From the NCBI GenBank assembly GCA_035541935.1, contig DATKMJ010000067.1:124001-188000 (forward strand): a stretch of DNA of 64,000 bases. Reading direction: 5' to 3'. The position numbers were made by a program, and so were the translations under genes. The notes beneath the pieces were generated by a model that saw nothing but the letters and a program-made list of their open reading frames with translations, was not told where the DNA came from and searched no databases. Positions 43,073-63,600 of this stretch are shown piece after piece. The first letter of the stretch is position 1. Every line of letters begins with the position of its first letter. Source of the stretch: Candidatus Binatia bacterium (lineage in GTDB: Bacteria > Vulcanimicrobiota > Vulcanimicrobiia > Vulcanimicrobiales > Vulcanimicrobiaceae).

Positions 43073-43113
43073 CTAGCAAACTAGCAAGCTAGCAAAGGGT
43101 AAAAGCTAGCAAA
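43073..43113 (+). repeat. Iteron-like direct repeats CTAGCAA(A/G)
   Basis: Three adjacent 8-bp units start at 43073, 43081 and 43089, and a fourth at 43106 after a 9-bp spacer; each reads CTAGCAAA or CTAGCAAG. The units contain the palindrome CTAG and alternate with AT-rich sequence. Such arrays often bind a replication or partition protein, or a repressor. They lie upstream of a small gene in the integrated element. Confidence 0.5.
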
Positions 43114-43145
43114 TTGTGGCTGGAGGCGCTATATTAGCCCCTCGT

Positions 43146-43346
43146 ATGCAGGGTGACGCTGAGCCGCTTAATCGGCGCCTGGGGCATCGCGTAACCCGGA
43201 CAGCCGAGCGGGCTCTCCGCCGCTTGGTTTTTGACTTGTGTGATCGGGGGCGACCAGCAAAACTAAACGTCGTCCTCGACGTCATCATTAAGCGAACGAG
43301 GGTCGAGGATATTGAGGATGCGTTTCCGCAGGAGGAGGATGGCTAA
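43146..43346 (+). CDS. Small hypothetical basic protein
   Basis: 66 residues from ATG at 43146, rich in Arg and Asp/Glu (LNRRLGHRVTRTAERALRRLV, then RTRVEDIEDAFPQEEDG). No signal or domain. A GTG further upstream (43116) is less likely. The stop abuts the transposase remnant's 3' end. It could be a short DNA-binding or regulatory protein of the element. Confidence 0.4.
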   Translation: MQGDAEPLNRRLGHRVTRTAERALRRLVFDLCDRGRPAKLNVVLDVIIKRTRVEDIEDAFPQEEDG

Positions 43347-44319: not shown

Positions 44320-44367
44320 GCCTCCATTTTAACCTAATACCTAGTTTTCGTCAAGTATATAATAACC

Positions 44368-44949
44368 TTAGAATAGATGGGGTTCTGGCAGCCCGCTTAA
44401 TTTACCATCCGGCCTGACCGTCAGCCGCGCTACCGGGAGGCTGCGAATGCGAAGGTCACTGAGGGATCGCGACAGCCAGGTCTCGGCACGACGTTGCTTG
44501 CTCGGCGGGATAATGCCCTTATTAGCGAGGCCTCGAACCACGAAGCTGGCGAGTGAGCAATCTCCATCGGGAGGAAACCGTTTTAGAACGTCCGCCAGCT
44601 CCCGCTCAATGCGATCCGGTAATAGAGTCTCTAAGATCCGACGCCAGACGTGGACGGGGCGATCCCGCGGCCGGAGGAGGCGACCGTCCGCCGTCACCGT
44701 GCTATACGACCTGCGTCTCCATGCTCTCGCGACACGTGAATTAAGCATAGCATTAATAGTTTTGACCGCTGTTCTGGCGGTGACCGGACGTGCCAGGACG
44801 TGCCCAAGTGCCTTCCTTCGGAAGGCGTTGCGATCGGATAGCTCCGTTAGAGTCGCACCGTAAGTTTTCGCGGCGCTGTCGATAACGCTGCGCACATTAG
44901 CCATCTGCATGCTATTGAGAACTCTAGCCGGTCTCCCAGGCGCTGCCAC
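44368..44949 (-). CDS. Hypothetical protein, Arg-rich
   Basis: 193 residues from GTG (44949); an ATG 13 codons in is possible. The N-terminal half resembles a helical DNA-binding or replication-accessory region (MANVRSVIDSAAKTYGATLTELSD). It also has RRSYSTVTADGRLLRPRDRPVHVW and a Trp/Arg-rich C-terminus. No family was recognised. It is divergent from the excisionase-like gene, the usual layout of regulatory genes in integrated elements. Confidence 0.45.
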   Translation of the reverse strand: MAAPGRPARVLNSMQMANVRSVIDSAAKTYGATLTELSDRNAFRRKALGHVLARPVTARTAVKTINAMLNSRVARAWRRRSYSTVTADGRLLRPRDRPVHVWRRILETLLPDRIERELADVLKRFPPDGDCSLASFVVRGLANKGIIPPSKQRRAETWLSRSLSDLRIRSLPVARLTVRPDGKLSGLPEPHLF

Positions 44950-45023
44950 GGTCGGTTGCGTGCCCCAAAAACGACAGGTTTTTGGGCCTATTTGTGGTCC
45001 GGTCCCTGAGGTACCTTGGAAGT

Positions 45024-45245
45024 GTGCCTAGGAACGTCGCAAAACCCACGGACAAGCCACCTAACCGGCTTCTACGTCCAGATGACGCGCTCGAACTTCT
45101 CGCAATCTCTAGAACGAAGCTCTACGAGCTTATGTCGACAGGCCAACTATCTTTCGTCCTCGTTGGGTCAGATCGAAAAATAGAACAACGCGAAATAGAC
45201 AGGTTCATAGAGCGACATCGCGTGCGAACGAGAGGATCCGACTAG
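45024..45245 (+). CDS. Excisionase-like helix-turn-helix protein
   Basis: 73 residues from GTG at 45024. RPDDALELLAISRTKLYELMSTGQL is the MerR-like winged-helix pattern of HTH_17/excisionase proteins, ending in RKIEQREIDRFIERH. Such proteins direct excision or regulate replication of integrative elements and phages. It precedes the primase gene. Confidence 0.75.
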   Translation: MPRNVAKPTDKPPNRLLRPDDALELLAISRTKLYELMSTGQLSFVLVGSDRKIEQREIDRFIERHRVRTRGSD

Positions 45246-45319
45246 CGATTGGCCGGTCATGGCAGCGGGCGCCTAAGCTTGGTTTTTCGTCGCGGCGGCC
45301 AGCCCGTATAAGAAGACAG

Positions 45320-45415
45320 GTGATACTGCGAGACGGTGAGGCGGTGATCGTGCTCCTTGATCTCCTTGAGGCACTGAACCGCCAACCCCCGGTATATAAG
45401 GTGCCAGAGCATTGA
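45320..45415 (+). CDS. Very short coding-like frame coupled to the next gene
   Basis: 31 residues from GTG at 45320 (VILRDGEAVIVLLDLLEALN, then RQPPVYKVPEH). Its TGA overlaps the TTG start of the next gene as TTGA, the same coupling used elsewhere in the window. Without that context the frame would be too short to support. Confidence 0.3.
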   Translation: MILRDGEAVIVLLDLLEALNRQPPVYKVPEH

Positions 45416-45810
45416 AAGACCATGTGTCTTACGTCGCTACGCAACACTCTGGCGATAGGTTCGCAACTGAAACGTCCACGATGCGTAGCAACAGCTTCAG
45501 CGCACAGGCCCGCGATATCACGGATGTAGATGCTCTCGCGCTAAGCGATCCGGCGCGATACAGAGAACTGCTCGGCGGATACCACCTCCTCATGGGCGAG
45601 AGATGCCTTCGGTGGCAGCGGTGTGCAGAAAGCGACGATGCGCGTTGGAAAGGCTGCGTCCGCGATGCAATCCTCAAAGTGGCGCGTCGTTCCGACTTCA
45701 ATGCGGCGCGGCTTGCTGACATTCTCGACCAAGGGCATTTCCCAAAAACTCAAGCGCGGATCATGCGCCTTGCCCGAGAACTGCTCTATACTGGCCGCGT
45801 GGCGCGCTAG
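45412..45810 (+). CDS. Hypothetical replication-module protein
   Basis: 132 residues from TTG (45412), or about 109 from ATG at 45481. The C-terminal part is helical with Arg/Leu repeats (WKGCVRDAILKVARRSDFNAARLADILDQG). No motif is known. It ends 2 bp before the primase start and is probably part of the replication operon. Confidence 0.5.
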   Translation: MKDHVSYVATQHSGDRFATETSTMRSNSFSAQARDITDVDALALSDPARYRELLGGYHLLMGERCLRWQRCAESDDARWKGCVRDAILKVARRSDFNAARLADILDQGHFPKTQARIMRLARELLYTGRVAR

Positions 45811-45812
45811 AA

Positions 45813-47240
45813 GTGGAAAGCGGGGGCGGCGAAGCCAGTGGCCGGCAGCGCGGACTCAGAAAAAGGAGCGCCACGCTTGCGGGGCCACCCGGCTTCGACT
45901 TGCTTTCCGAGGACGACGCCGCTCGTTTTCTGATTCGCGAGTTTGGTCATCGCGTTCGCTACTGCCTAGCCGGCGGGGGTTGGTTTATCTGGGACGGAAG
46001 CCGCTTCAATCTAGACCGCGACGGCGCAATATTGCGACTGGTTTCCGAGGCTACTGATCGCGTTCTAGCCATGGTGGAGAAGCTCAATGATCTCGAACTG
46101 CGCAAGAAAACCTTGCAGTACGTTATCCGCTTGCGCCGCTACCATGGGCACGAAAATGTGGCTAGGCTTGCGGCATCAAAGCGGCCCGTCGCGATCGGAG
46201 ATCCCGAGGCGTTCGATGCGGATCCATGGCTACTCAATGTCCGCAACGGCACGATCGATCTTCGCACAGGAACTCTGCGCCCACACGATCGTCGTGATCT
46301 GCTTACAAAAAGGCTTGATGTGACATACCGAGCCAATGCACGGGCTACCCGCTGGCATCGATTTCTCTGTGAGATCTTCGACGGCGACTTGGAAATGGTG
46401 GACTTTGCGCAGCGCGCAGCCGGTTACTGCCTCACAGGCGATATGCGCGAGCACGTATTCTTCGTGCTTTATGGGCGCGGCGCCAATGGAAAGAGTACGT
46501 TCGTCGAAACTCTTCAAACGTTACTTGGCGAATACGCGCAATCGTCAGATCCAGAAACTTGGTTGCGGCAATCGAACGGGCACCGAGGCGCTTCGCCCGG
46601 TATCGCGCGCTTGCGGGGAGTACGATTTGTCGCCGGTTGCGAGATCGACGATGGCCGTGCACTCGACGAGGCGCGCGTCAAACAGATTGTCGCGGGCGAT
46701 CGAACAACAGCCAGGCAGCTGTACCAGAACGAGTTCGATTTCTTCCCAGTCTGCAAGCTTTGGATTAGCACCAACCACCCGCCGCAGATCCGAGGGACGG
46801 ACGATGGTATCTGGCGCAGAGTAATCCTCATTCCGTTTCAAGTCCAGTTCACAGGTGGCACCTGCGACCCGCAGCTCGCCGCGAAATTGCGCGCCGAGTT
46901 TTCGGGAATATTAGCTTGGGCTGTAAGGGGGTGTTTGGAATGGCAGAACGGTGGGCTCCGCCCACCGGAGTCGGTTCGACGCGCGACCGCAGCCTACCGG
47001 GCACAGTCCGACGTAGTGGGGCAATTCGTGACGGACGAATGCGTCGCTGACGCGCGGTGCAGCACCGGAGCCACGGCTCTTTTCGATGCATACAGGCGCT
47101 GGTGCGAAGGCACTGGCGAACGTACTCTTACGCAGACTGCCTTTGGTCGCCGTCTTACCGAAGCGGGATATGAGTCGGGTCGAACGGGCACTGGACGCAA
47201 GTGCTGGCGTGGCATCGGGCTGCGCGATGCGAAGGACTAG
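45813..47240 (+). CDS. P4-type primase/helicase (D5-like, SF3 helicase)
   Basis: 475 residues. The N-terminal D5 domain (FLIREFGHRVRYCLAGGGWFIW, then WLLNVRNGTIDLRTGTL) is followed by the SF3 helicase: Walker A GRGANGKST (221-229), Walker B region RFVAGCEIDDG, and the C motif WISTNHPPQIRGTDDGIWRR. The C-terminal winged-helix part follows. Such proteins unwind and prime replication of P4-like satellites, phages and plasmids. GTG start. It marks the element as a replicating mobile element or satellite rather than a simple island. The next gene overlaps it by 14 bp. Confidence 0.93.
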   Translation: MESGGGEASGRQRGLRKRSATLAGPPGFDLLSEDDAARFLIREFGHRVRYCLAGGGWFIWDGSRFNLDRDGAILRLVSEATDRVLAMVEKLNDLELRKKTLQYVIRLRRYHGHENVARLAASKRPVAIGDPEAFDADPWLLNVRNGTIDLRTGTLRPHDRRDLLTKRLDVTYRANARATRWHRFLCEIFDGDLEMVDFAQRAAGYCLTGDMREHVFFVLYGRGANGKSTFVETLQTLLGEYAQSSDPETWLRQSNGHRGASPGIARLRGVRFVAGCEIDDGRALDEARVKQIVAGDRTTARQLYQNEFDFFPVCKLWISTNHPPQIRGTDDGIWRRVILIPFQVQFTGGTCDPQLAAKLRAEFSGILAWAVRGCLEWQNGGLRPPESVRRATAAYRAQSDVVGQFVTDECVADARCSTGATALFDAYRRWCEGTGERTLTQTAFGRRLTEAGYESGRTGTGRKCWRGIGLRDAKD

Positions 47241-47511
47241 CTGGTCCGAACTGTCTGAAACGTTGGCCCGCTTTCCCGGAAAGTCTTTCGTACACGTGCG
47301 CGGTGAAAGTTTATGGGAGCTCAGTCAACTATTCAGACGATTCGAAATGAAAAGTATGGCTTTGAATCACGCACGGCTCCGTGGCGATGTGGATTTAACG
47401 CAGGCGTACCCATTACGCCTAATGGCCGGCCTCATGCGCGCTGCGAGAGGCACCAGCGTCCAAGCTTTCGGCAAGGAAAAGCGCCCAGGGTCCTTGCGGC
47501 CCGGCGCCTAG
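47227..47511 (+). CDS. Hypothetical small protein
   Basis: 94 residues from ATG at 47227, overlapping the primase end by 14 bp. FPGKSFVHVRGESLWELSQLFRRFEMKS and RLMAGLMRAARGTSVQAFGKE give a mixed alpha/beta appearance. No family. Probably co-transcribed with the primase. Confidence 0.45.
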   Translation: MRRTSWSELSETLARFPGKSFVHVRGESLWELSQLFRRFEMKSMALNHARLRGDVDLTQAYPLRLMAGLMRAARGTSVQAFGKEKRPGSLRPGA

Positions 47512-47535
47512 TTCGTATTATTGAGGAGTCTACAC

Positions 47536-47970
47536 ATGCAATGGAGTGTGCCAAATGTATCTCTGTCGAGAGAGCCCACCTGCGTTTCTTGCTCGCCTGT
47601 TCTCGACGAACTAGGTGTGGACCACGTGCCTTGCCCGGCGGATTTCTGCGTGGCTTGTGGCACTGATTTGCGAGTGAAGAGACTCCTCGTCAGCGTGGTC
47701 GGCTTCGCTGACGCTTGGCGCCTGTACGTTTGCGAGGTGGCCGAACGTGATGGCCCATCAGCCTCCGCAGAGCGTGAGCGGCTTCAAATGTCGCGGAGCG
47801 ATCGACTAAGGCTTGTCGACCTCCTTTACGAAGGGTGCACGGTTTACGAATATGGCCTGTGCGGATTAGTAGGCACGACCTTTGTGGGAGTCGGAGAGGA
47901 TGGTGCATTACTTTATGCGAGGCCTTGCGAGTACGATATTGGGCCGATCCTGTGCCTTCGGGACCCTTAA
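47536..47970 (+). CDS. Hypothetical protein with CxxC pairs
   Basis: 144 residues from ATG at 47536 with a GAGGAG site. An N-terminal CVSC and a CVAC pair (about 30 residues apart) suggest a zinc ribbon. The rest (LLVSVVGFADAWRLYVCEVAE, then RSDRLRLVDLLYEG) is unassigned. Small zinc-ribbon proteins are common in mobile-element operons. Confidence 0.5.
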   Translation: MQWSVPNVSLSREPTCVSCSPVLDELGVDHVPCPADFCVACGTDLRVKRLLVSVVGFADAWRLYVCEVAERDGPSASAERERLQMSRSDRLRLVDLLYEGCTVYEYGLCGLVGTTFVGVGEDGALLYARPCEYDIGPILCLRDP

Positions 47971-48007
47971 CCATTCATTGGCGCAACTATCCGGACCTCA
48001 TCGAGGC

Positions 48008-48412
48008 ATGGAGTCACACATAGGCAAACGTGGACGACCCCCCGGTAGCCCGAATAAGCTGACGGCTGAGGTCGCAAAGGCGGTGTGCGGGCTCTTGGAG
48101 GCCTCCGTTCCAGACCGATACGCTGCCGAGGCGAATGGGCTTAGCGAGCGGACGTTCCGACGCTGGATGGAGCTCGGCGCCGCTGGGCGGAAGCCATACG
48201 CTGAATTCTTTGCCGCCGCTACGCGCGCGCGCGCGCGAGCGGTGGTGCGGCTTGTAGTTAAGGCTCTAAGTGGCGGTCCTGGATCGTATCAGGCGCTCCG
48301 GATCCTGGAGCGCCGCTACCCGCGTTATTTTGGCCGATCTGGGGCCAGGGTAGGACCTCTGAGCTTCAGTGCTTTTGAGGGCGCATATCTTTCTCGTTCG
48401 GCTGGTACGTAG
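48008..48412 (+). CDS. Terminase-small-subunit-like / homeodomain-like HTH protein
   Basis: 134 residues from ATG at 48008. GKRGRPPGSPNKLTAEVAK is the usual N-terminal basic tail, followed by a helix-turn-helix (DRYAAEANGLSERTFRRWMELG) and a helical region rich in Arg/Ala. This is typical of phage terminase small subunits and related homeodomain-like regulators. No terminase large subunit is next to it, so the packaging role is uncertain; it may be a satellite protein that uses a helper phage. Confidence 0.6.
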   Translation: MESHIGKRGRPPGSPNKLTAEVAKAVCGLLEASVPDRYAAEANGLSERTFRRWMELGAAGRKPYAEFFAAATRARARAVVRLVVKALSGGPGSYQALRILERRYPRYFGRSGARVGPLSFSAFEGAYLSRSAGT

Positions 48413-48447
48413 CCGGATTTTGCATATTGGGGTACACTTATGCAAGG

Positions 48448-49173
48448 ATGCGCTTCCAGCCGTGGCCTCTGCCTCATCCAACCGGAAATTTGCAAAGCCT
48501 CCTAACGGAGTTGATCCCGGAGCGCCTGGTCGCCAAGGCTGCCACCATAGGCGTCGCGGGCAGCTTGGATGCTCCCCCGGCCGAGCGCCGTCCCAACGGC
48601 GTAAACTACCTGCATGATCTCGCCGGGGGCCGAATCGTCAAACCTCCGCCAGCCGCAGCGTGGTGGGCCGGGTTGGCGGCAAGCGCCGTTACCCGCCAGC
48701 GGTGGTGCAATCCGACGCTGTTCCTGTTCGCCGCCGGGCACTATGCGGAATTCGCCGCGGTGATTCTCGGCGCTGACCACCGAATGCCGGCGACTCGGCG
48801 AAGGGATTTAGTGCTGCACGCTGCGTCGGCGATCGAACCGACCCCTCCAAAGCTTGGGCGCGATGAGACGGTGCGCCGCCATATTGCTCTGGGGCACGAT
48901 GACCTATCTGCTAGGCGTGCGGCTGATTGGGAGTTCGAAATGGAGCCGAGCCCGCGCATTGATCGCGCCGTATGGTCGATGAGCGGGTCCGAGGTGGAGA
49001 CTCTCCGCGCCGCTTGGGTGGCCGCCCAGCAGGCCCCGCTGGACATGACCGACGCGACGATCGCTGCTTGCTATCTCGCTGCCCACGGGCGGATCGGCAA
49101 AGAGGGACCGAACGTTCCGCTTCCGATGCGCGCGCGCATCGCAGCTAACGTGATCGCGGCCTCCTTGCAATGA
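48448..49173 (+). CDS. Hypothetical protein of the integrated element
   Basis: 241 residues from ATG at 48448. It begins RFQPWPLPHPTGNLQSLLTEL and contains WWAGLAASAVTRQRWCNPTLFLFAAGHYAEFAAV, then helical sequence with Arg/Asp (DETVRRHIALGHDDLSARRAADWEFE). No signal or motif. Unknown. Confidence 0.45.
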   Translation: MRFQPWPLPHPTGNLQSLLTELIPERLVAKAATIGVAGSLDAPPAERRPNGVNYLHDLAGGRIVKPPPAAAWWAGLAASAVTRQRWCNPTLFLFAAGHYAEFAAVILGADHRMPATRRRDLVLHAASAIEPTPPKLGRDETVRRHIALGHDDLSARRAADWEFEMEPSPRIDRAVWSMSGSEVETLRAAWVAAQQAPLDMTDATIAACYLAAHGRIGKEGPNVPLPMRARIAANVIAASLQ

Positions 49174-49303
49174 GCAGCAAATCCACGGAATCTTATCCAC
49201 ATACTCGCAGCCGAAGAACCCCCAAGGACGCTACCTGTGCATTGCGATACTTCGGTGTTAGGCGCTTCGTCGGCGCGCGCTTCGCACGGCGAGCACTCGC
49301 GCG

Positions 49304-50038
49304 GTGATCCCGCCAGTCGTCTTCGAAGCGAGGCCCCCTTCCATGATCGAATTTCGTCCTGGGACCCACGTTGCTAATGCCCGGCTCCGCCTGCACGCCC
49401 TCATCGCGTTGCGTTTCCCCCGTGTCGTGCGTTCGCTCGCGGCGTTCTCTTACGGCGTGTCGCCGCAGACCAAGTTGTCGATCGACTCCAAACGGCGTTG
49501 CTTTCGCGTCGGACGGGGCGCGAGTGTCGCTGTCCCACTGTCGCGGTTGATCACACGGCACGTTCCGGAAGTCGTTGGAGCGCATTTAACGCACGCCTTC
49601 GCGGCGCACTCCCTGAATTTTCCATCGGCTTGTAGCCTCACGGATCTGCTCGATGATTCGATCACGGTCTGCAACCTGGCGAGAGTTGGCCGCGCCGTAA
49701 GGTCGGCGATATCGGCCGGTGGTCGCGCGGCGACGCCGGCAGCCGCGAGCGAGGCGGCGGATCGCATCGACGTCCTGCTTATGCTGCTGGCGGGCAATGC
49801 CGTCTCGGCGCGATACGGCGATGCCGCGAGGACGCTTGAGCTCGTTCACGCGACCGGCACCGACGCGCGCGGGAAGGCCGTTTGGGTCGGCGAGATCCTC
49901 GACCGTTTGGGCTGGAACATCGCTCCGGACCTGGCGACGTCCGTGCTCGAATCCGTCTTACCGCGGATTACGGGCGCCAGCGCCCGAGAGCGCTTTGCGG
50001 CACGCAGCCGCGTTGCCGAGGCTCTGGGCGATGCGTAG
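49304..50038 (+). CDS. Unrecognised protein preceding the base-hypermodification-family gene
   Basis: 244 residues from GTG at 49304; an ATG at 49343 gives 231. It is mostly helical with LRLHALIALRFPRVVRSLAAF, VAVPLSRLITRHVPEVVGAHLTHAF and a repeat-like C-terminus (RTLELVHATGTDARGKAVWVGEILDRLGWNI). I could not assign a family. Its 3' end overlaps the next gene by 8 bp (GATGCGTAG), so the two are translated together. Confidence 0.55.
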   Translation: MIPPVVFEARPPSMIEFRPGTHVANARLRLHALIALRFPRVVRSLAAFSYGVSPQTKLSIDSKRRCFRVGRGASVAVPLSRLITRHVPEVVGAHLTHAFAAHSLNFPSACSLTDLLDDSITVCNLARVGRAVRSAISAGGRAATPAAASEAADRIDVLLMLLAGNAVSARYGDAARTLELVHATGTDARGKAVWVGEILDRLGWNIAPDLATSVLESVLPRITGASARERFAARSRVAEALGDA

Positions 50039-51038
50039 TGCGGTACTCACCGTCGGAGGGCGGTTGCGCGCAACCGACGTGTTCGATGAGTATTGGAGGT
50101 TCGCTTACGAGCGGATGCGCACGTTCGTGCGCCGCAAGCGGGGCGATCTTGTCCTGACGGAGGATCCTATTATCGCGCGATTCCGCTTCACGAATGCCTA
50201 CCGCGTGATCGACCGCGTCACGCAGTATCTGATTGCGCATGTTGTGCAGAACTGCTCCGACGCCCGCGAAGTGTTTTTCAGAACGTTGTTCTTTAAGATA
50301 TTTAACAAGATCGAGACGTGGGAGCTGCTCGAATCGGGTCTCGGACGGATATCGCCCAAGAAGTTCGGTTGGGCGGAGGCGGATGCGGTACTTTTGAGGG
50401 CACTCGAAGCCGGGCAGACGATTTACTCGGCGGCCTACATCATGCCATCCCCGAATTTTGGTCTTCGCCGGAAGCACGAAAACCATCTCGCGCTTCTCCG
50501 CTCGCTGGTCGAGAGCGATATGGCTTCGCGCTGGGCCTACACAAAGAGCTTGCGTCAACTGTATGCCGTCCTGCGAACCGTGCCATCGTTTGGGCGTTTT
50601 CTGGCATTCCAATATGCGATCGACCTGAACTACTCCGATTGCGTCGCGTTCGATGAGGATTCGTTCGTCGTAGCCGGCCCGGGCGCCGTCGATGGAATCT
50701 CGAAGTGTTTTGAGAACGGCGGCCAGCTGGAACCCGAAGCCGTGATAGCCGCAGTGACGGAAGGTCAGCAGGCGCAATTTGAACGCCTCGGACTAGATTT
50801 TCCCGGACTCTACGGGCGACCGCTCAAGCTAATCGATTGCCAGAATCTGTTCTGCGAGATTTCGAAGTATTCTCGCGTGTCGCATCCGCACGTCCAAGGC
50901 GCCGCCAAGCGCACGACCATCAAGCAGGCATATCATCGGCGCGGCGCGCCGATCGAGGATCTCGCGTTCCCCCGCTCATGGTCGCTCGAACCACGGAGGG
51001 GCTACGAAGACTGTGTCCCCTCGTTGGTGCCCAGGTAG
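50031..51038 (+). CDS. Putative DNA base hypermodification protein (5-hmdU DNA kinase helical-domain / aGPT-Pplase-like)
   Basis: 335 residues. Characteristic segments are EYWRFAYERMR, FTNAYRVIDRVTQYLI, FFRTLFFKIFNKIETWELLE, TIYSAAYIMPS, KHENHLALL, SFGRFLAFQYAIDLNYS, VVAGPGAVDGISKCF, FERLGLDFPGLYGRPLKLID and CQNLFCEISKYSRV. This is the pattern of the family predicted to act in synthesis of hypermodified thymine bases in phage and mobile DNA. No function has been shown for this protein. It is convergent with, and overlaps by 37 bp, the MazG-like gene. A thymidylate-synthase-like gene lies in the opposing operon. Confidence 0.75.
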   Translation: MRSAVLTVGGRLRATDVFDEYWRFAYERMRTFVRRKRGDLVLTEDPIIARFRFTNAYRVIDRVTQYLIAHVVQNCSDAREVFFRTLFFKIFNKIETWELLESGLGRISPKKFGWAEADAVLLRALEAGQTIYSAAYIMPSPNFGLRRKHENHLALLRSLVESDMASRWAYTKSLRQLYAVLRTVPSFGRFLAFQYAIDLNYSDCVAFDEDSFVVAGPGAVDGISKCFENGGQLEPEAVIAAVTEGQQAQFERLGLDFPGLYGRPLKLIDCQNLFCEISKYSRVSHPHVQGAAKRTTIKQAYHRRGAPIEDLAFPRSWSLEPRRGYEDCVPSLVPR

Positions 51039-51904
51039 GCAATCTCGCGCCGTTCGAGATCGTACCGTACGATGCCGCCGCCGTTTTTGACGAGGTCGCG
51101 CCAAACGTCGAAGCCACGAACAATGGCCTGTTCCCATTCGTTGCGGCTGCGGACTCGGACTTCGAGATGCTCCGTTAGCCGCTTGACCGAGTCGAGCAGG
51201 CCGTAGTCGAGCGTCCGTTTCGTCTCGTAGTAACGGTGATTTCTGGCGTCCTCGAACACAAGGCCGGAGACCGCCTCCTCGTAGATGATCGCGCGCGCAC
51301 CGTCCTCGACCTCGTCGATCTCCTTGCGCGACTTGCGCTTGAGTTTAAGATTGCGCCGCGTCACGGGTGACCATCCGAGAATACAGGCGTATGCAAAGTG
51401 GAATGCGTCGTGAAACCGGTAGCCGTCTGGCGAGTGTGCGTTGTCGGTAAGGAAGTCACCGATCTGCCGGTCGTTCCAAGTAACGACGACCCTCCGCTTG
51501 CCGCGCTCGTCGGCGTGCTCTGAGAACAACGCGTCAAACCATCTAGGCAGGCGTTCCTTCGGCGGGAATTCGTCGTCGAAGAAGCGCGGCGAACGTTGTG
51601 TGCCCGGTTCGCTCCACCGGTCGGCGACCTTAGCAAGATTGCTACGCGCGACCTCGCCGAGATCGATGTCGAACTTTGTCGCAGTGTTCGAGAGGTACCA
51701 AAGGATGTCGCCTAGCTCCTCGGCGATCTTTTCCTTGAAGAGTTCGTGGGCGTCGCCGTCGCGCAGATACTTCTTGTACTGACCGAGCACCGTGCCGACT
51801 TCGCCCGCTAGGCCGAGGAGCGGGATCTCCATCGCGTTGCGATCATTGCCGGGGTGGCGGTCGGTCTTCGCCGCGAGCCGCTGGTACTCGGAGATCTCCA
51901 TCAC
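51002..51904 (-). CDS. MazG-type nucleoside triphosphate pyrophosphohydrolase with MazG_C-like C-terminal domain
   Basis: 300 residues (GTG 51904, or ATG 51901). An N-terminal all-alpha NTP pyrophosphohydrolase region has GLAGEVG (Glu35) and EELGDILWYLS (62-72), the metal ligands of MazG enzymes that cleave (d)NTPs to NMP plus PPi. From about residue 100 a second domain with WNDRQIGDFLTDN and FHDAFHFAYACILGWSPVTRRNLKLKRKS follows, a C-terminal domain known with MazG in base-modification contexts. The start overlaps the thymidylate-synthase-like stop. It may cleave a modified or normal dNTP to control the pool. Confidence 0.75.
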   Translation of the reverse strand: MMEISEYQRLAAKTDRHPGNDRNAMEIPLLGLAGEVGTVLGQYKKYLRDGDAHELFKEKIAEELGDILWYLSNTATKFDIDLGEVARSNLAKVADRWSEPGTQRSPRFFDDEFPPKERLPRWFDALFSEHADERGKRRVVVTWNDRQIGDFLTDNAHSPDGYRFHDAFHFAYACILGWSPVTRRNLKLKRKSRKEIDEVEDGARAIIYEEAVSGLVFEDARNHRYYETKRTLDYGLLDSVKRLTEHLEVRVRSRNEWEQAIVRGFDVWRDLVKNGGGIVRYDLERREIAYLGTNEGTQSS

Positions 51905-52683
51905 GCGGCCGCGCTTCTGATAAGTGGCAGGTGCTTCTTGAGCAGCACCTTGGGCGTGTTTATGTAGGCTCTACCTGCGACCATCACCAATGATCCGCAG
52001 CACAGACCCGCTTGCCCGGCAACGTATTCGCACAGCTGGCCAAGACCAAGGATGTTCCCGTAAGCTTTGCGTCCCACGTCCTGATTGCGATAGAACGCGG
52101 CGATGTGCAGCAGCGCGCCATCTCGCTGGAAAGAGAGATGGCTCATGCAGGGGAATCCCATTTTTCGGGCGTGATTCTTCTCGGTTTCGTAGATGGTCAA
52201 AGACGGCGCGTCCTCCTCGGTCTCAAAGCGGAGATCAATCTCGGTCATTGTGGCGTTGTGGTTCCGCCGCAGCTTTGCGATCGTGTCATTGAGTTGGTCG
52301 TAGTGATCGCCGCTCGTTGACACTTGCGTGTCGATCATTCGCCCGAAGTACGTTCCGTGCCGATTTCCCGGATACATGCGGAGCCGCGGATAGTCTTTCC
52401 GATACGCGTCGGCGAGATCGACCGCGTTGGAAGCGCGCTGCGCGTAGTGCAGCGGGAAGATCGTCGTGCGCACGGTGCGGACAGGATACACGGTTTTGTC
52501 CTTCTCAGCCCATTCGCTCAGCAACGACTCAACCGCGTCCCGGACCGCACTCGATTCGGAGACGGGATTCCTTACTCGGACGATGGCTTGGAACACTCCC
52601 GTCGCGTGAGGTTCGACCAGATCCACATAGCGAAGCCACGCCTCGGAAACGGTCTCCGCCTCGATGATCCCGCTTTGTGTCAT
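51901..52683 (-). CDS. Thymidylate-synthase-like enzyme
   Basis: 260 residues. The C-terminal half carries the ThyA-like active site: FPCMSHLSFQRDG with candidate nucleophile Cys179, AFYRNQDVGRKAYGN (Arg199, Asn200, Asn210) and LGLGQLCEYVAGQAGL, then VMVAGRAYIN. Classical ThyA has PC(H) at the nucleophile, QRS, and a substrate-binding Asn in the following helix; all have counterparts. The N-terminus is longer and different (PVRTVRTTIF, RHGTYFGRMID). It may methylate or hydroxymethylate dUMP, or use another nucleotide. A 4-bp ATGA overlap joins it to the peptidase gene. Confidence 0.75.
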   Translation of the reverse strand: MTQSGIIEAETVSEAWLRYVDLVEPHATGVFQAIVRVRNPVSESSAVRDAVESLLSEWAEKDKTVYPVRTVRTTIFPLHYAQRASNAVDLADAYRKDYPRLRMYPGNRHGTYFGRMIDTQVSTSGDHYDQLNDTIAKLRRNHNATMTEIDLRFETEEDAPSLTIYETEKNHARKMGFPCMSHLSFQRDGALLHIAAFYRNQDVGRKAYGNILGLGQLCEYVAGQAGLCCGSLVMVAGRAYINTPKVLLKKHLPLIRSAAA

Positions 52684-53300
52684 GCAGCCCTCTCCACGAA
52701 ATGAACGGCGAGCAGATGCTGCCGCAGGTAGCCAGTGGTGACATAGCCGTAGCCGCCGTCTCCCCAGTCGGTTCCCCAGCTGTTCTTGATGATGACGACG
52801 TCCTCTCCGTTTCGTACGTCGCAGCCGACCGCGAGAACGGCATGGGCATCTTGGGCCGGCTCGGTGCCCACGTCGACTATGCCGTCATGGCGCTCCCACG
52901 CCGACGGCACGAACGCCAGCGTCATTACGGCGCAATGCGATTCGACCGCGCCCAGCACGTCGCCGACCGATCCGACGCTCCACGTCCCGGCGAGCGGGCG
53001 TCGGTTCGCGTCCTCAAGGCTTTCGGGTGGCGGTGGTCCCGGGTACCCCGGGTTTCCGTACGGCCAGGCGCTCTCAAGAGCATGCCGGTCCTCGGTGATT
53101 CCGCAGACGACGTGATCGACAGACGTGCAGTCTTGCTGGGGCCAAGGATCGCGGCGCTTGCCAGAGTAGAAGGCGTCTTCGACGGACAATGCCTCACGGC
53201 GCGATGCCCACTCGTGCGCCGACGTAACGGCGCAGGCCGCGCACGTACCACGCGGTCCCTGATCGACCACCGCGGTTTGTTCCGCGCGACGGTCGGTCAC
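52680..53300 (-). CDS. Papain-like (C1 family) cysteine peptidase
   Basis: 206 residues. The C1 triad with oxyanion Gln is in place: Gln14 in VVDQGPRGTC, the nucleophile Cys20 (exactly six residues later, as in papain), His153 in DAHAVLAVG and Asn173 in IIKNSWGTDWGDGGYGY. The first disulfide Cys of papain is replaced by Arg17. No signal peptide is seen, so it should act in the cytoplasm, unusual for a papain-like enzyme. It directly follows a gene encoding a chagasin-like inhibitor domain, with a GTGA overlap. No propeptide is visible. Confidence 0.85.
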   Translation of the reverse strand: MTDRRAEQTAVVDQGPRGTCAACAVTSAHEWASRREALSVEDAFYSGKRRDPWPQQDCTSVDHVVCGITEDRHALESAWPYGNPGYPGPPPPESLEDANRRPLAGTWSVGSVGDVLGAVESHCAVMTLAFVPSAWERHDGIVDVGTEPAQDAHAVLAVGCDVRNGEDVVIIKNSWGTDWGDGGYGYVTTGYLRQHLLAVHFVERAA

Positions 53301-54283
53301 GCGGCCAGTTCCTCAAGATAGCGCACCGGAAAACCGAGCCGCGCGGTCGACTCGATCGTCATCGGCGCGAAAAAGCGTCTTACTGACTGAGCCGGTTTCC
53401 ACGAGCGAGCCTGCACGAACGTCAGCGCCGTGTCGACTCGCTGCTCTACGTCACCAACGCAGAGGACGAAGCGTCGCATACGCAGCTTGCCCGTTGGGAC
53501 TGGCCGCTCGCCGGCGTCGTAATCGGAGTCGTAGGAATCGGAAACGATAGCAAAACGCGCATCGTCGTGATGGCGCCAACGATATCCAGACGAGGGAATC
53601 TCAGGCAACCGCACGATAACATGGTCGCCGCTGCGGACCAGACGAGGCATCTGGTCGTCGATCTCATCCAGCATATGGATGTCGCTTCGCCAGGACGCCG
53701 GCGCGAAGCCGACTGCGAGCCGCTCCTTGATATCCTGCGGAGGACGCTTGAGCCAATCGTTCGCGCGATGCGGCGTCGCCCGCTTGGAGTTTCGCAGGTG
53801 CTGCGCCGTGGACTCATACGACGTTCCGAGGAAGAGCGCGAGTTGATACACCTGCTCACGCGTAACGATCCGGTCGATTCCGTGCCGCGCGGCATAACCG
53901 TCGATGAGCCCGGGCGGCATGAGAAACCACGAGGCGAAGCTTTCCGCGAGCTTCTCCTCGTCCGTCTTCGGTGGGGAGCCCGACTCGAAGATGTCGTTGG
54001 AGTCCAGCGTGGTGTAATGCTTGAAGAACAGGTGCCCGAGTTCGTGTGCGACGCTGTACCGCTGACGGGAAAGTGGATGGTTGGAGTTGACGATGATTCC
54101 AGCGGAATCGCTTTCATGGACAATCGCCGCACCGAGCTTGTAGAGGGGACGAAACGCAAGGAAAATCCCGCGCTTGGCCGCAACGTCGAACGCATCGATC
54201 CACCGGTTCGTTTTGACGCCCCAATTACGATGAGCTTTCGCTGAGGCGTTGAGCGCGGCGGTCGACGCGTGTAGCCAGTTCAC
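53297..54283 (-). CDS. ImmA/IrrE metallopeptidase fused to a chagasin-like cysteine-protease-inhibitor domain
   Basis: 328 residues. Residues about 25-190 are an ImmA/IrrE (COG2856) zinc peptidase with HELGH (80-84) and EEKLAESFASWFLMP (the third ligand probably Glu114). Residues about 205-298 match the inhibitor family I42 (chagasin): the NPTTGY loop reads IPSSGYRW (229-236), the GxGG loop region reads VPTGKLRMR, and the RPW loop reads ARSWKP (292-297). Chagasins occlude papain-like active sites. A C-terminal tail (TIESTARLGFPVRYLEEL) follows. Start GTG overlaps the XRE stop. ImmA-type proteases usually cleave an XRE partner. Confidence 0.75.
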   Translation of the reverse strand: MNWLHASTAALNASAKAHRNWGVKTNRWIDAFDVAAKRGIFLAFRPLYKLGAAIVHESDSAGIIVNSNHPLSRQRYSVAHELGHLFFKHYTTLDSNDIFESGSPPKTDEEKLAESFASWFLMPPGLIDGYAARHGIDRIVTREQVYQLALFLGTSYESTAQHLRNSKRATPHRANDWLKRPPQDIKERLAVGFAPASWRSDIHMLDEIDDQMPRLVRSGDHVIVRLPEIPSSGYRWRHHDDARFAIVSDSYDSDYDAGERPVPTGKLRMRRFVLCVGDVEQRVDTALTFVQARSWKPAQSVRRFFAPMTIESTARLGFPVRYLEELAA

Positions 54284-54633
54284 CCGCGCTCCTTACCCCT
54301 ACGTTGGAATCGAAGGAACTCGGCGAAGCGCAGCACTTCCTGTTGATCCTCCGCCGTTAGGTCGCCCGCGGCGCGCGCGAAGGCGCTGAGCAGCGACTGA
54401 TCGGCGACCTTCACTTCGGTCTCGTCGAGAAAGTAGGAAACCGGCCGCAGGTAGACGCGCGCGAGCTTCTTGAGCTCCGTGCTCTCCACGCGCCGCTTGC
54501 CACTCTCGATTTCGGCGATCGCGGTGCGCGGAATGCCCGTCCGCTCCGACACATATTGCTGGGTGAGATTGAGGTATTCGCGCGCCTCGCGCAGTCGGGC
54601 GCGTAGCGCGAGCTGGTCGTCTACGGCGCTCAC
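54280..54633 (-). CDS. XRE-family transcriptional regulator
   Basis: 117 residues with an HTH of Cro/C1 type: LREAREYLNLTQQYVSERTG, IPRTAIAEIESGKRRVES, then LARVYLRPVSYFLDE. The C-terminal half (LTAEDQQEVLRFAEFLRFQRR) is a helical dimerisation or ImmA-interaction region. It probably binds the palindrome at 54926-54940 and represses its own operon. The adjacent ImmA/IrrE peptidase may cleave it to relieve repression. Start GTG overlaps the preceding stop (GTGA). Confidence 0.9.
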   Translation of the reverse strand: MSAVDDQLALRARLREAREYLNLTQQYVSERTGIPRTAIAEIESGKRRVESTELKKLARVYLRPVSYFLDETEVKVADQSLLSAFARAAGDLTAEDQQEVLRFAEFLRFQRRGKERG

Positions 54634-54911
54634 GCTGACTGCACAATCCGCTGGGCGAGCAGGTCCTGGATGAACACTGAAAGGCGAGCGACATCGCGCT
54701 GGACCTCCTCCACCTCCACTGGATCCAAATCAAGCCCGAAGTGCTCTTCGATCTCGAACTGGTAGTGGACGAACTCCTCAGAACTCCACGGGGGATCGTG
54801 CGGGCTGCGTAGTCCCTCCTCGCGGACCGCTTCGAGGGTAATATTGCGATCTCGGGCGACTAGGCCGAGCAGGTAGTCCTCTATTTCGGTGATAGGCGGG
54901 ATTGTCGGCAT
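54630..54911 (-). CDS. Acyl-carrier-protein-like small acidic protein
   Basis: 93 residues. The sequence ITEIEDYLLGLVARDRN, then WSSEEFVHYQFEIEEHFGLDLDP, then ARLSVFIQDLLAQ follows the helix pattern of acyl carrier proteins. The usual DSL phosphopantetheine site reads WSSEE, so Ser43 or Ser44 could be a variant attachment site or the fold may have another use. It is the first gene of the operon; the ATG at 54911 has TGGAG upstream. A role as a sensor or scaffold for the protease switch is possible but not shown. Confidence 0.55.
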   Translation of the reverse strand: MPTIPPITEIEDYLLGLVARDRNITLEAVREEGLRSPHDPPWSSEEFVHYQFEIEEHFGLDLDPVEVEEVQRDVARLSVFIQDLLAQRIVQSA

Positions 54912-54925
54912 ATGGAACTCCAGTT

Positions 54926-54970
54926 GTCGGATTTTCCGACATTATACTGGAGAGCAAAGGTCCGGGTCAA
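54926..54970 (-). promoter_or_regulatory. Sigma70-like promoter with palindromic operator for the six-gene operon
   Basis: On the minus strand: -35 TTGACC (54965-54970), 18-bp spacer, -10 TATAAT (54941-54946). Directly downstream of the -10, covering the likely start site, is a perfect palindrome GTCGGA-AAA-TCCGAC (54926-54940). CCAGT and ACTGG flank it as outer arms. The leader is then about 23 nt. The palindrome is a good candidate operator for the XRE protein of the operon. Confidence 0.7.
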
Positions 54971-54980
54971 GGAGCGGTTG

Positions 54981-55760
54981 CTATGGGTGGCGTGTCAGGG
55001 TCAAAGAAGGCTTTGGCCTTGGCACGCCGGCGCTGGAAGCTCCCGGCCCGCGCGTGGCAGTCGGCGCAGTTTGGGGGCTAGCAGGCAAGGCGGTGCGCCC
55101 GACCGAGATGTCGGTGTGGAGCAGATAGATAACTAGGCCGGCAACGAGCGCAATGCCCAAAGCCATCACCGCGCTCAAAGTGGCCCGGATGCCCACTTGC
55201 TCGTGTTCCAACTTATCAAGGCGAGAATCGAGCATGTCGATCGTCTTCCACTCCCCGGAGATCGGTCCAACGATATCAGAGGTAATGCCGTCGTGGCCCC
55301 CGCCTTGACGCGCCCATTTAGTTGGATGATCGAGCGACAGGAACCAAATGAGAAAGCAGTCTTCTCCGCTGCGCAAATGGATGGTGGACGGTCCGGCGTT
55401 GAAAACCCCAAAGATGAGCTTGCCACTGTAACCTGGATCGACGTGAAAGCCGGAGACGTTAACGAGACCGCGCCACTTGATGCGCGCCTTGATTGAGATC
55501 AGCGCCATGGCGTCGTTTGGGACCATGACTGTTTCGGCTGTAACGAGAAACGCGTATTGGCCAGGCGGAATGACGATATCTTGGCCCGTCTGAAGTTGGC
55601 GGATGACGGCATTGTCGCGCCCTTCTAGACTGCTTGGAGATACGTAGACCTCATTCCCAACCTTGAGCGTGTACGCCGCACCATCAACCGCCGCGGCCGT
55701 AGCGGGGAAGACAACTTCTTCTAAGTGTGATATCAGCGTCTCGGCGCTCCAAACCGGCAT
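54981..55760 (-). CDS. Membrane-anchored dCTP-deaminase/dUTPase-like protein lacking the catalytic Glu
   Basis: 259 residues. Residues about 30-145 have the trimeric dUTPase/dCTP-deaminase fold: VIPPGQYAFLVTAETVMVPND, ISIKARIKWRGLVNVSG and HVDPGYSGKLIFGVFNAG, then HLRSGEDCFLIWF. In bacterial dCTP deaminases the corresponding segment has a catalytic Glu (VLEFYN); here it is Gly118. A coiled-coil-like stretch (about 177-188) leads to one membrane helix (about 195-214) and a Pro-rich C-terminus. It may bind a nucleotide rather than deaminate it. It is on the same strand as the six-gene operon, which starts 70 bp beyond its stop. Confidence 0.75.
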   Translation of the reverse strand: MPVWSAETLISHLEEVVFPATAAAVDGAAYTLKVGNEVYVSPSSLEGRDNAVIRQLQTGQDIVIPPGQYAFLVTAETVMVPNDAMALISIKARIKWRGLVNVSGFHVDPGYSGKLIFGVFNAGPSTIHLRSGEDCFLIWFLSLDHPTKWARQGGGHDGITSDIVGPISGEWKTIDMLDSRLDKLEHEQVGIRATLSAVMALGIALVAGLVIYLLHTDISVGRTALPASPQTAPTATRGPGASSAGVPRPKPSLTLTRHP

Positions 55761-56192
55761 TCGTGACGACTCCGGCGCGCAGCGATCTTATCCTCCCTGC
55801 TTTCTCCTTAGCGGCATCTTGGTGCGCGCGAACGGTGTGCCGGCTTAGCCGAACTCCCTAGTAGAAGCCTCAGAGCAGCTCCGCGCACTGTGGCTCTTGG
55901 GCGCCGCCACCTTCGACCCGCGGGGTTCCCTATAGCGGAGATGTAGTTCACCGCCTCCCTCGGTAGTTAGTGCTGTTGGGCGCCGTTCGTCAGCCCCGGC
56001 CCACCAAAGATCGAGCTTCTGGCTTGCCGGTCGCTGTTCGCGCCGGTCCTGTCGGAATTACTCAGCCAGTGCGCTCGTCGCGCTAAGGCCGAAATCCGCC
56101 GTTTTCGCGCGCGCAGCGACTAATGACGCTGGCCAAGCGGGTCCGGCATGGTATCACACTGTCAACTTCGGAACGGAGGGTGACGGGAGCGG
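55761..56192. other. 432-bp non-coding stretch; nothing recognised
   Basis: No gene or motif was supported. A promoter for the divergent recombinase or an attachment site could lie here; no repeats were found by eye. Confidence 0.4.
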
Positions 56193-56922
56193 ATGCGGAG
56201 TCGGGAGTTTTTAGGGCCACCGAGCCGGCGAGCAATCATCGGCTACGCCAGGGTCAGCACGCAAGAACAGGCGACCGACGGCGTTAGTCTTCAGGCGCAG
56301 TGCGCTCGGATTACTGCTTATTGCGAGGCTATGGATTGGCTGCCTCGCGAGTTAATCACCGATGCCGGAGAAAGCGCCAAGTCCCTAAAGCGCCCAGGCA
56401 TGGCGAAGGTTCTAGACCACGTACGCTGCGGTGCAATCTCGCGAATCGTGATTTCCAAACTTGACAGAATCACGCGGTCAACGCGCGACCTAGCAGACTT
56501 GATAGAGTTGTTTGGTCAGTTCAACGTCTCGCTCGTTTCAAGTGAGTGAATCCCTCGATACGCAAACCGCCGCCGGTCGCCTCGTCGTCAACATGCTCTG
56601 CGTCGTAGCCCAATGGGAACGCGAGGCGATCGGCGAGCGAACGGCCGAAGCCCTTGCGCATAAACGCCGGAGTGGACTTGTCTACGCGCGTACGCCTTTT
56701 GGCTACTGTCGGATCGCTGATAGGCTTGTGCGCGACGAGGTTCAGCAGCAGGCTCTCAGGAAAGCTTGCGCTATGCGTTCGGCAGGTAATAGCCTGCGAC
56801 GGATAGCGGCCGAACTCGAAGCGATGCAAGTGGCCCCGAATAACGGAGCCGCAAGATGGCATCCTCAGACCGTCAAGGCCATTCTTAACTCGCGAATGAC
56901 GTTGAGTGCCGCCGAACCCTAA
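56193..56922 (+). pseudogene. Serine recombinase (resolvase/invertase), one-base frameshift
   Basis: The N-terminal catalytic domain starts at ATG 56193 with GYARVSTQEQ (nucleophile Ser22) and continues through VISKLDRITRSTRDLADLIELF. It then reaches a stop at 56549. The rest (ESLDTQTAAGRLVVNMLCVVAQWERE, PFGYCRI, HPQTVKAILNS) continues in the next frame to 56922. Removing one A at the AA of 56540-56541 joins NVSLVS to VSESLDT. The protein was about 240 residues, a small serine recombinase, not a large integrase. In its present state it should be inactive unless rare frameshifting occurs. Confidence 0.85.
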
Positions 56923-57020
56923 CCCGCAGCGGGCGTGGTGGTTTTTGCCCAAGCCTTGGCTAATGTTTCTCTTACTGGCGCAGATCGCTTGCGCCATTCT
57001 CCAGAGCTCGGCGAAGGGCG

Positions 57021-60162: not shown

Positions 60163-60641
60163 AATGCGAGCGGTACACATGTTCTGAACCAGGCCTACCG
60201 CCGCCGCTAGACACCGAAACTCGAAGCGCAAACCAAAGTAAGGTCGCCTCGGCTGATGTTGCGCGGCTGAAGGGCCGACGAACGACGCGGTTGTCGTGTC
60301 GTTAGATGGACGGGTTACCAGAAATTGCTCGACGCTTCGTGGTTCGATACCTCAAACGAAACTTGTCGTGAAACGGGGCGTGGCGAGGGAGCCTTCTGGC
60401 ACGAAAACCGTTTTCAACAGGTGCCCAAAACGTAGGGCGAGCTTGTCTGAAAAAAGACCTACGGTCCCTGAGTCAACCGTGGATCACGCTAGTCGGTGGA
60501 TCAGGTTAGTCAACTGTTGCTAGCCTCAAAAGCCGGTGCTATCATGTAGATCCCGGTGGTCGTGCTGAAATACCAAGCGGCATGACGCAGCACGCCATTG
60601 TGCCTCCAAGTCGAGACTCGCTTTCATTGAGGTGGAGGACT
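60163..60641. other. 479-bp stretch with no supported gene
   Basis: The only frames are short and Arg/Ser-rich without family features. GGTGGAGG at the end is the ribosome site of the RHS gene. Confidence 0.4.
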
Positions 60642-63600
60642 ATGAAAGGTGCTACGCTGCTCCGGCAGGTGATCGCCGGCATCTTGGTCCCGAGCATCCT
60701 GATCGTCCAGGCGCCGCCGTTGGCTGCAAGCGTATCAAGCCGCCCGCCCTCGGTGACGGTCAAAGGCATCCCGGTCACGCGGAGCGGTCCAGATGTGCCG
60801 TGGGTTGGCGGGAAAGGCGGCCTCTCGACGCCTGTCGTTAAGCGGATGCTTAGCGAGTTTAGCCTCGGCGTATCGCTGGCGACGGCGCTGCATACGCTGG
60901 GATCACCGTGGGTGGTGATTCGTCAGGCTGCACGTTCGTATTGGATGTACCGGACTGACGACGGGCATGCGTGGTTCTCCCTTGGCGTTGAGCACGGTCG
61001 GGTCGACTCGATCCAGGTATCGCTCTACGCACACGATCGCAGCAGCATCCGCGGCCCCGACGGCGTCCTTTTGGGTGGCCCGTCCGGGCAGGTCACGGCC
61101 ATAGGGAAGCACCAGGTGACCAACGCAGGAGATGTAGCGGTTGAAGCGTCCGCAGCGGCGCACGGCCACATATTCTACGGGTTTGATCGCGGCGGCCGCA
61201 TCGATCGGCTGGGGCGTTCTCTAGGAAATGACGATCTCGGCTCCTTCGCCCGCTGGTACGAGTTCGACGGGCATGGTCCCGATCGCCCAATCCCCGTGGC
61301 GGCCTACGGGGGCAGCCTCCAGGGGCAGCGTTCGTACGTCGCGCGGCTCAACGAACCGTACATTCCGTGCCTTGGGGGCAATGCTTGGCGCGTCGTCACC
61401 GAATCGCGTGAGACGTTTGCTGGCGTCGCGATTGATGCACTCAAGCTTCGCTGCGGTAATACGTTGCTGACGCGACCGTACTTCTTCGCGGCTACTGCCA
61501 CGCTTCCGCGCCCGTTTGACGTCGACGGGTCGGCCCAACGGCTGATCGGAAGCGCCTTCAGCGCGGGCGTGAGAACCGGGGGCACAACGGGTCAGATCTG
61601 GGTGACGACGCCGAATGGAACTCGTATAGCCGGCACCGGGGTGGACTTCGAATTCGCCTACATCGACGACCCGGATAACCCGCTCACCAGCGTGACGGCG
61701 GTACAGGTTGGGGAGAGTGAAACCGTGGCGACGTCTCGGGCCAAAGGCGCTGCCCGCACCGCGACTCCGCCGATAACAATAATCTGTACATTCGGCTCAG
61801 GCAGTGGAAAGTGCTCGCAGGCATTAGGCGATGGCCAGCCGTGCTTCCAGCTCTCGGCTACCTTCGGCGCGTTCAATGTTCAGTCCGGTACGGCATGCTT
61901 CTCGGTCGCCGGCGACCCGCTGGACTTTTCGAGCTTCGCCGCGTTGGTGGGTAGCCTCGGATGCACAGGTGCGCCCGTGAACGCCGTGAGCGGGAACCTT
62001 TGGTACCAATACCAAGATGCGCAGCTATCTGGACCGTTCGGACTCTCCTTCAGTCACCGATACGATAGCACAAAATCGACACGCCAGGGTGACCTTGGGT
62101 TGGGGTGGCAGGAGACGTACGGGGCATATCTCGACATGACAAATGCCTCAGACGGCATCGTCACGTTCGTCGATGGCAGTTGTAACCGAATCTACCTACA
62201 AACGCTCGGAGCAGGGACGAGCTCCTACGACCAGTATTCCGGCGACACCCTGTATACCCAGTCCGATGGCACGTTTAAGCTCGTTACATGGGATAATCGG
62301 ACGTTCGTTTTCAATACGACGGGCCAGCTCACGTCAATGTCCGATCGCATCGGAAACACGCAGACGATCAACAGGAACACAAGTGGCGACATCACCACCG
62401 TGGTGGACGGCCTCAGCAGAACGCTGACGTTTACATACGACACATCGAATCGGATCACGGGTATCACGAGCACGCCGTCCGGCGTAAGCATAACCTTCAC
62501 ATACACGAGCATCCTCGGGCACTGTTACAGCGGCGACCTCTGTTCGGTGAAAGAATCCGATGGCTCCATCTGGACCTATCAGTACTACAACCCCTCATCC
62601 TACGGTGGCCAGCATTTGCTGCAGTACGTCATCGATCCGCTCGGGCATACCGAGGAAGCGAATACCTACCAGCTCATAAACCTCGGCAACGGCGACAACC
62701 ATTATCGCGTCATCGAGCAGTCCATCGACTCGGGCGTCAACGACAATACGTATTCGTATTCCATCTCAGGCACAACCGGAACGACGTCGATCAGCGACGC
62801 GCTCGGCCACCTGACGACCTATGGCTGGGATCAATATCTCCAGCAGGTCACCTCGGTAAGCGGCTACCTGTGTTTCTGCCGCGGCGATACCTTGGCGTAC
62901 GACTACGACATATTCGGGCGGCCCTTGAGCGTGACTGAGGGCAGCGACTCAACGCTGGCTACGGCGCAGTACGGCCGCGACGTGCAGTTTACGAGCCCCG
63001 ACGGCACGACGAGTTACATCGGGCTGGCGTATCCGAGCGTCACGCAGTTACAGCAGCGCGGTATCCTCACCGATAACGGCATCGCCAACAAGAACACCGA
63101 GATCGCCTACTACCCGCTCGAAAGTGCACAGCAGGATCTGCCGCAGACCGTGACCGAGCCGTCGGTCGACACTGCCGGTGCCGCGGCGGTCACGACGTAC
63201 ACGTTCTCAAGTCAGGGCCTTCCAACGGCAATCTCGCGAAGCGGCTATTCCGGTGGCTCGGCCGCGACCCACGCCGTCTCCGCCACGTATGATTCGCGTG
63301 GCCGCATGCTGACGTTCACCGGCCCACGCACCGACGTTACGCAGACCACGACCTTAGGGTACTATCCCGACACTGATACCGATCTGGCGCGCCGTGGTCA
63401 GCTCGAGTCGATCGAGGATGCCCTGGGCCACACGATCACCTTTGCAAGCGCGGCCTCGCCGAACAACAGTTACAGTATCTACGGCGGTCCGTTAAGCTCC
63501 ATCGACCCCAACGGCGTGGTCAGCGATTTCGCCTACGACCAGCGCGGGCGTCTGGACAAGACGACCCTCAAGGGCGTGACAGGCGATCCGACGGACCTTG

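Follow-up and report, generated by a model that had tools for sequence, protein, structure and literature searches.

Why should a metalloprotease of the ImmA/IrrE type end in a domain resembling chagasin, whose known targets are papain-like enzymes, when the very next gene encodes a papain-like peptidase? The question is raised by a 64,000-nucleotide stretch of a Candidatus Binatia bacterium assembly (contig DATKMJ010000067.1, positions 124,001 to 188,000; hereafter the window). Here, a 328-residue protein consisting of an M78 metalloprotease and a C-terminal I42 domain (ImmA:I42; 53297..54283, minus strand) is followed by a 206-residue peptidase of family C1 (hereafter C1; 52680..53300, minus strand). 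A preliminary description of this DNA had singled out the two genes, whose 4-bp overlap is borne out by the open reading frames (ORFs), and had proposed a toxin-antitoxin-like effector/inhibitor pair. In our analysis, the I42 domain is probably a dedicated, cis-encoded inhibitor of the neighbouring C1, and the operon a two-lock stress switch in which C1 would be released when ImmA is triggered.

The inhibitor domain and its neighbouring peptidase

By sequence and predicted fold, the ImmA/IrrE protein carries a C-terminal chagasin (I42) domain at residues 198-311 (53351..53692, minus strand). In a whole-protein scan, Inhibitor_I42 (PF09394) matched residues 216-300 with E=7e-6 and 26.6 bits against a cut-off of 27.2, while the genome scan gave 29.2 bits, above that cut-off; relatives scored 46.4, 39.7, and 38.2 bits. 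A profile of nine relatives compared with the PDB retrieved amoebiasin-2 (9e-12), Pseudomonas ICP (3e-6), and chagasin (2e-4). The AlphaFold2 (AF2) model of the full protein (predicted local distance difference test, pLDDT, 89; predicted template modelling score, pTM, 0.87) places the same residues on EhICP2 with a Z score of 13.7 and on chagasin with Z scores of 12.2-12.9 (VIA-align range Z 12-14; Foldseek 6e-8), and the chagasin matches include chains from complexes with cysteine proteases.

The three loops that would contact a protease are also in place. IPSSGYRW (53576..53599), VPTGKLRMR (53474..53500), and ARSWKP (53393..53410), all on the minus strand, each fall on a conserved wedge motif in a 30-row family alignment (GYxW, GG, and RPW, respectively). 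Gly233 and Trp236 of the first loop and Trp295 of the third are invariant in all 30 ImmA:I42 proteins, Gly265 of the second is kept in 28 of 30, and the third loop reads RPW in most relatives. Conservation is concentrated at these sites, with 2.53 bits for the wedge segments versus 1.85 for the rest of the domain, a value reached by 3 of 114 circular shifts. Fold, profile matches, and conserved motifs together rule out a chance resemblance to I42. The preliminary description had picked out these loops, together with a HELGH motif, and had made its reading depend on the I42 character of this region, which both sequence and predicted fold uphold.

Known inhibitors of the chagasin/ICP type (MEROPS I42; chagasin, EhICP2, PbICP-C, and Pseudomonas ICP) have the fold and the three wedge motifs in common with ImmA:I42. 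They are stand-alone or secreted proteins, and the natural targets of the bacterial members are often unclear; here, by contrast, an intracellular metalloprotease carries the domain, and the gene of the domain's probable cognate C1 enzyme lies next to it.

The metalloprotease half appears equally intact. Pfam Peptidase_M78 matches at E=2e-13, and His80, Glu81, and His84 of the HELGH zinc site (residues 80-84; 54032..54046, minus strand), as well as the downstream Glu110, are invariant in the family alignment. Residues 1-189 of the model adopt the CapP fold (Z 11.9) and resemble IrrE/PprI (Z 10.5-11.4), and the nine-relative profile finds IrrE (7e-10) and CapP (2e-8). The GAF-like C-terminal sensor domain of PprI is absent from ImmA:I42, and the predicted model instead shows the chagasin fold in its position.

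C1 itself has the catalytic residues and predicted fold of the papain family. It matches Pfam Peptidase_C1 at E=1.7e-11 and PDB profiles at 4e-23, and its Gln14 (oxyanion), Cys20, His153, and Asn173, correctly placed in the preliminary description, are invariant in 31 relatives. The AF2 model (pLDDT 90) aligns over residues 1-206 with residues 4-219 of cathepsin S (Z 24), so that papain-family (C1A) peptidases such as xylellain and the cathepsins share both its fold and its catalytic set. Unlike typical C1A peptidases, its gene shares an operon with XRE-ImmA regulatory genes, and the AF2 alignment and the ORF bounds leave space for neither a propeptide nor a signal peptide, the lack of the latter having been noted in the preliminary description. 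Because the model aligns over its full length with mature papain-type enzymes, C1 is predicted to be made without a propeptide. In one metagenome-assembled genome (L037, 758-1452), the C1 gene lies in two frames, possibly through decay or sequencing error.

Co-occurrence of I42 and C1

Related loci were collected with the thymidylate synthase (TS)-like gene of the operon as search bait, which is neutral to any claim about I42 and C1. Both I42 and C1 were present in 32 of the 45 genome loci obtained in this way; 9 had ImmA without either, all of them in Actinomycetota, and 4 lacked ImmA, I42, and C1, leaving no discordant locus. Pooling genome, plasmid, and virus-collection loci into 60 non-redundant operons with ImmA gave 43 with both, 17 with neither, and again none discordant. 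Chance adjacency of C1 and I42 is ruled out by this distribution, and the conserved co-occurrence on which the preliminary description had also staked its reading was found. Among the loci, no natural fusion of ImmA:I42 with C1 was found.

Stand-alone bacterial I42 proteins do exist, for example Pseudomonas ICP (2wgn), and the domain could in principle be aimed at foreign cysteine proteases, such as those of a phage or predator, with the adjacent C1 gene a coincidence. We consider this very improbable, since C1 lies next door in 43 of 43 I42 operons and is missing from 17 of 17 operons without I42.

The same agreement is seen within individual groups. On plasmids, ImmA:I42 and the C1 gene occur in one and the same set of 16 records, and two Streptomyces plasmids lack both; a seventeenth plasmid match to C1, from Deinococcus, proved to be an unrelated 470-residue protein. 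The only sampled Actinomycetota locus with C1 (L113) carries SSGITW and RPF motifs, and the other sampled actinobacterial loci have neither a C1 gene nor wedge motifs. When the C-terminal domain of C1-less ImmA proteins was compared with I42 by HHalign, Streptomyces reached a probability of 55% across 27 columns, and the other set stayed below 2%. At L110, L111, L114, L115, and L116, the operon takes a second, divergent form (XRE-ImmA-TS-HMUDK, most with carrier and MazG genes as well); its ImmA has a different C-terminal domain without wedge motifs, and C1 is absent.

Operons with I42 and C1 occur in Pseudomonadota, Acidobacteriota, Chloroflexota, Verrucomicrobiota, Myxococcota, Planctomycetota, Nitrospinota, and Candidatus Eremiobacterota, which is the best-matching phylum for the window, as well as in one genome of the phylum sampled around a Streptomyces genome, for a total of nine bacterial phyla, and on one archaeal plasmid (Haloarcula). 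The partial correlation of I42 and C1 distances, controlling for M78, TS, and XRE, was 0.34 (0.17 to 0.47), suggesting a signal of modest size; the corresponding value for I42 and TS was -0.12.

The I42 character of the domain in sequence and fold, combined with an exceptionless co-occurrence, leaves an endogenous protease/inhibitor pair well supported. The toxin-antitoxin-like unit of the preliminary description is upheld in this respect only, as the pair is not free-standing and forms an optional cassette in a larger conserved operon that includes carrier, XRE, TS-like, and MazG genes together with an HMUDK or uracil-DNA glycosylase (UDG) gene. In the strict sense, the pair might still play a toxin-antitoxin or abortive-infection role.

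The proposed two-lock switch

The gene order upstream of C1 recalls two characterized regulators. In CapH/CapP of CBASS and DdrO/PprI (IrrE), too, an M78 protease comes after an XRE repressor, and PADLOC matches capP for ImmA (3e-17) and capH for XRE (1e-11). In the window, the XRE-type repressor gene (54280..54633, minus strand; HTH_3 1.6e-12, PADLOC capH-like 1.1e-11) directly precedes ImmA:I42, as it does in related loci, and its product is the predicted substrate of ImmA cleavage. Two differences set the locus apart: the chagasin-like domain sits where PprI carries its C-terminal GAF-like domain, and, in contrast to CapH/CapP, the next gene encodes a papain-like protease and the genes downstream encode nucleotide enzymes instead of CBASS. 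The GAF-like domain of PprI is critical for activation of repressor cleavage by single-stranded DNA (ssDNA), and the related CapP protease is ssDNA-activated as well (PMC10904395).

On the reading that we favour, the I42 domain would replace both the missing propeptide of C1 and the C-terminal sensor domain of PprI. In the resting cell, XRE would repress the operon, and C1, made as the mature enzyme, would be bound and capped by the I42 wedge loops. ImmA could then be triggered by ssDNA, as are PprI and CapP, or by another infection or damage signal, and would cleave the XRE repressor; the same trigger would free C1 through a conformational change, self-cleavage, or turnover. Freed C1 might cut a cellular protein or one encoded in the operon, with the TS-like enzyme, MazG, HMUDK or UDG, the dCTP-deaminase-like protein, and a phosphopantetheinylated carrier acting as a metabolic arm.

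We raise only tentatively the broader idea that the locus is an undescribed prokaryotic stress or immune switch, in which an inhibitor occupies the IrrE-type sensor slot and one signal both derepresses the operon and unleashes C1, with the carrier possibly loaded with a modified nucleotide or an acyl group as the monitored signal. If the proposal holds, this would be the first endogenous pair of a chagasin-type inhibitor and a papain-type protease in prokaryotes, as we know of no earlier one, and would show how an effector protease lacking a propeptide can be held inactive. The system also joins subjects that have been studied separately, namely IrrE/CapP damage sensing, bacterial I42 inhibitors, and nucleotide-modifying conflict systems, here with a dedicated carrier. 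The preliminary description knew of no bacterial system combining these domains, and the literature we searched likewise did not describe the combination; older bioinformatic work may mention part of the operon. An ImmA:I42/C1 cassette in IrrE-regulated nucleotide-enzyme systems is apparently undescribed.

Several observations weigh against the favoured reading. The C1/I42 cassette is dispensable, for in Actinomycetota and some of the Pseudomonadota the larger operon of carrier, XRE, ImmA, TS-like, MazG, and HMUDK/UDG genes is also found with the cassette missing. The tree forces only 2 independent switches of I42/C1 state, and 3 on the best tree, and a formal test on independent pairs therefore cannot reach significance. 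In a complete genome (L064, 6177-7354), the I42 part is out of frame with ImmA, beside an open C1 frame, which argues against a strongly toxic C1. Finally, PADLOC recognized no validated defence system; its matches were generic XRE/ImmA ones, with none worth noting for C1, TS, MazG, HMUDK, or UDG. The frame break in L064 may itself reflect decay or a sequencing error.

C1 could instead act as a regulatory step. In such a cascade without killing, I42 would dock C1 onto ImmA, and both proteases would act in sequence on XRE or the carrier, tuning the nucleotide enzymes with no toxin involved. The position of the pair, in the operon's regulatory half between XRE-ImmA and the metabolic genes, is consistent with this; operons without it keep XRE-ImmA and the enzymes, as an added control layer predicts; and the open C1 frame of L064 fits as well. 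What a cascade leaves unexplained is the retention of a tight-binding inhibitor fold with three wedge motifs in place of a plain docking domain, and we regard it as possible but doubtful.

Operon partners and mobile setting

On the minus strand, the order is dCTP-deaminase-like protein, 93-residue carrier, XRE, ImmA:I42, C1, TS-like enzyme, and MazG-MazG_C. The start of the C1 gene overlaps the stop of the gene upstream, and 4-bp overlaps are found at every junction from the carrier gene through MazG, that is, at four junctions in addition to that between ImmA:I42 and C1; the operon carrying the pair is translationally coupled. The preliminary description mentioned neither these further overlaps nor the larger conserved operon.

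The TS-like enzyme (51901..52683, minus strand) matches TIGR03283 (1e-9) and Pfam Thymidylat_synt (5e-4) and has an invariant Cys179. MazG (51002..51904, minus strand) is a pyrophosphohydrolase with a MazG_C domain (Pfam MazG_C 8e-72, MazG 6e-6). Convergent to the operon lies a gene for an HMUDK_hel protein, the helical domain of 5-hydroxymethyldeoxyuridine (5-hmdU) DNA kinase (49992..51038, plus strand; PF18723 5e-92), whose start is uncertain, the longest ORF beginning at 49719; in relatives, a UDG gene may stand in the place of this kinase-like gene. The dCTP deaminase/dUTPase-like protein (54981..55760, minus strand; DCD 9e-13, TIGR02274 5e-18) has a C-terminal hydrophobic stretch.

The carrier (54630..54911, minus strand; 93 residues) resembles acyl carrier proteins (ACPs). 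Its family profile matches ACPs in the PDB from 7e-6, and a Streptomyces relative is recognized by PP-binding at 9e-8. Ser44, the sole invariant column of a 26-row alignment, is the predicted phosphopantetheine site. A phosphopantetheinyl transferase (PPTase) gene adjoins the carrier gene in many relatives, and none is found in the window.

With a carrier, often a PPTase in relatives, and base- or nucleotide-modifying enzymes encoded together, a biosynthetic role for the pair might be considered, in which the C1-fold enzyme would be an amidase or transferase acting on an ACP-carried group or a modified nucleotide and I42 its structural partner. Yet carrier, TS-like, MazG, and kinase genes occur without C1 in loci lacking the pair, so that C1 is not needed for their chemistry, and C1 has kept both the papain fold and the complete Gln/Cys/His/Asn set. 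We judge this role improbable.

The enzyme types surrounding the pair recur in the nucleotide-modification conflict systems described in the main text of the DefensePredictor report, which covers TS, 5-hmdU kinase, MazG/MazG_C, UDG, and dUTPase (PMC13092281). According to that text, TS and a 5-hmdU kinase domain were validated against phage, MazG, MazG-C, and dUTPase were predicted as defence, and UDG belongs to a predicted system; the same main text names neither ImmA nor an acyl carrier, and M15 is the sole peptidase it mentions (PMC13092281). Both the carrier and the C1/I42 pair appear to be undescribed additions to such systems. As TS and the 5-hmdU kinase domain are phage-validated and MazG, MazG-C, and dUTPase are predicted as defence there, a defence role of the operon is likely by analogy.

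The genomic surroundings point to a probable mobile element. Within 42119-57000 of the window, a tRNA-Pro gene, an IS1595-type transposase, and a D5/Pox_D5 primase come before the system, and after it lies a serine recombinase whose sequence occupies two frames (56193..56922, plus strand; Resolvase 1.5e-22 and 4.6e-9, Recombinase 5e-6), which suggests an integrated element. Elsewhere, ImmA:I42/C1 systems are found on conjugative plasmids. No full-length relative was found in phage records, but one prophage-like IMG/VR contig has one: there (L119, 1-11805), the complete system adjoins a tyrosine phage integrase, and a second, phage-type thymidylate synthase lies downstream (phrog_5131 1.8e-58). 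At L199 (5752-6540; G688, of the class of the acidobacterial locus), a PPTase-ACP-XRE-ImmA:I42-C1 block runs into some 30 codons of TS and then a ThsB-type TIR gene (PF08937 3.5e-23; PADLOC ThsB 1.9e-60), a recombination joint between an ImmA:I42/C1 system and a Thoeris component. Both settings are compatible with residence in a defence hot spot. A mobile system directed against invaders is the likeliest identity of the whole operon.

Additional genes were observed around several of these loci. A DUF4031 protein recurs in the beta/gamma loci L009, L041, L045, L052-L055, L057, L058, L060, L061, and L063 (annotated in L009 and profile-checked in L057, PF13223 1.3e-26). Large proteins (open frames of 503-786 residues) at L097-L103 match the TS-like family distantly and lie outside the operon. 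In the window itself, a long ORF resembling YD/RHS repeats occupies 60582-63998 and runs past the window end.

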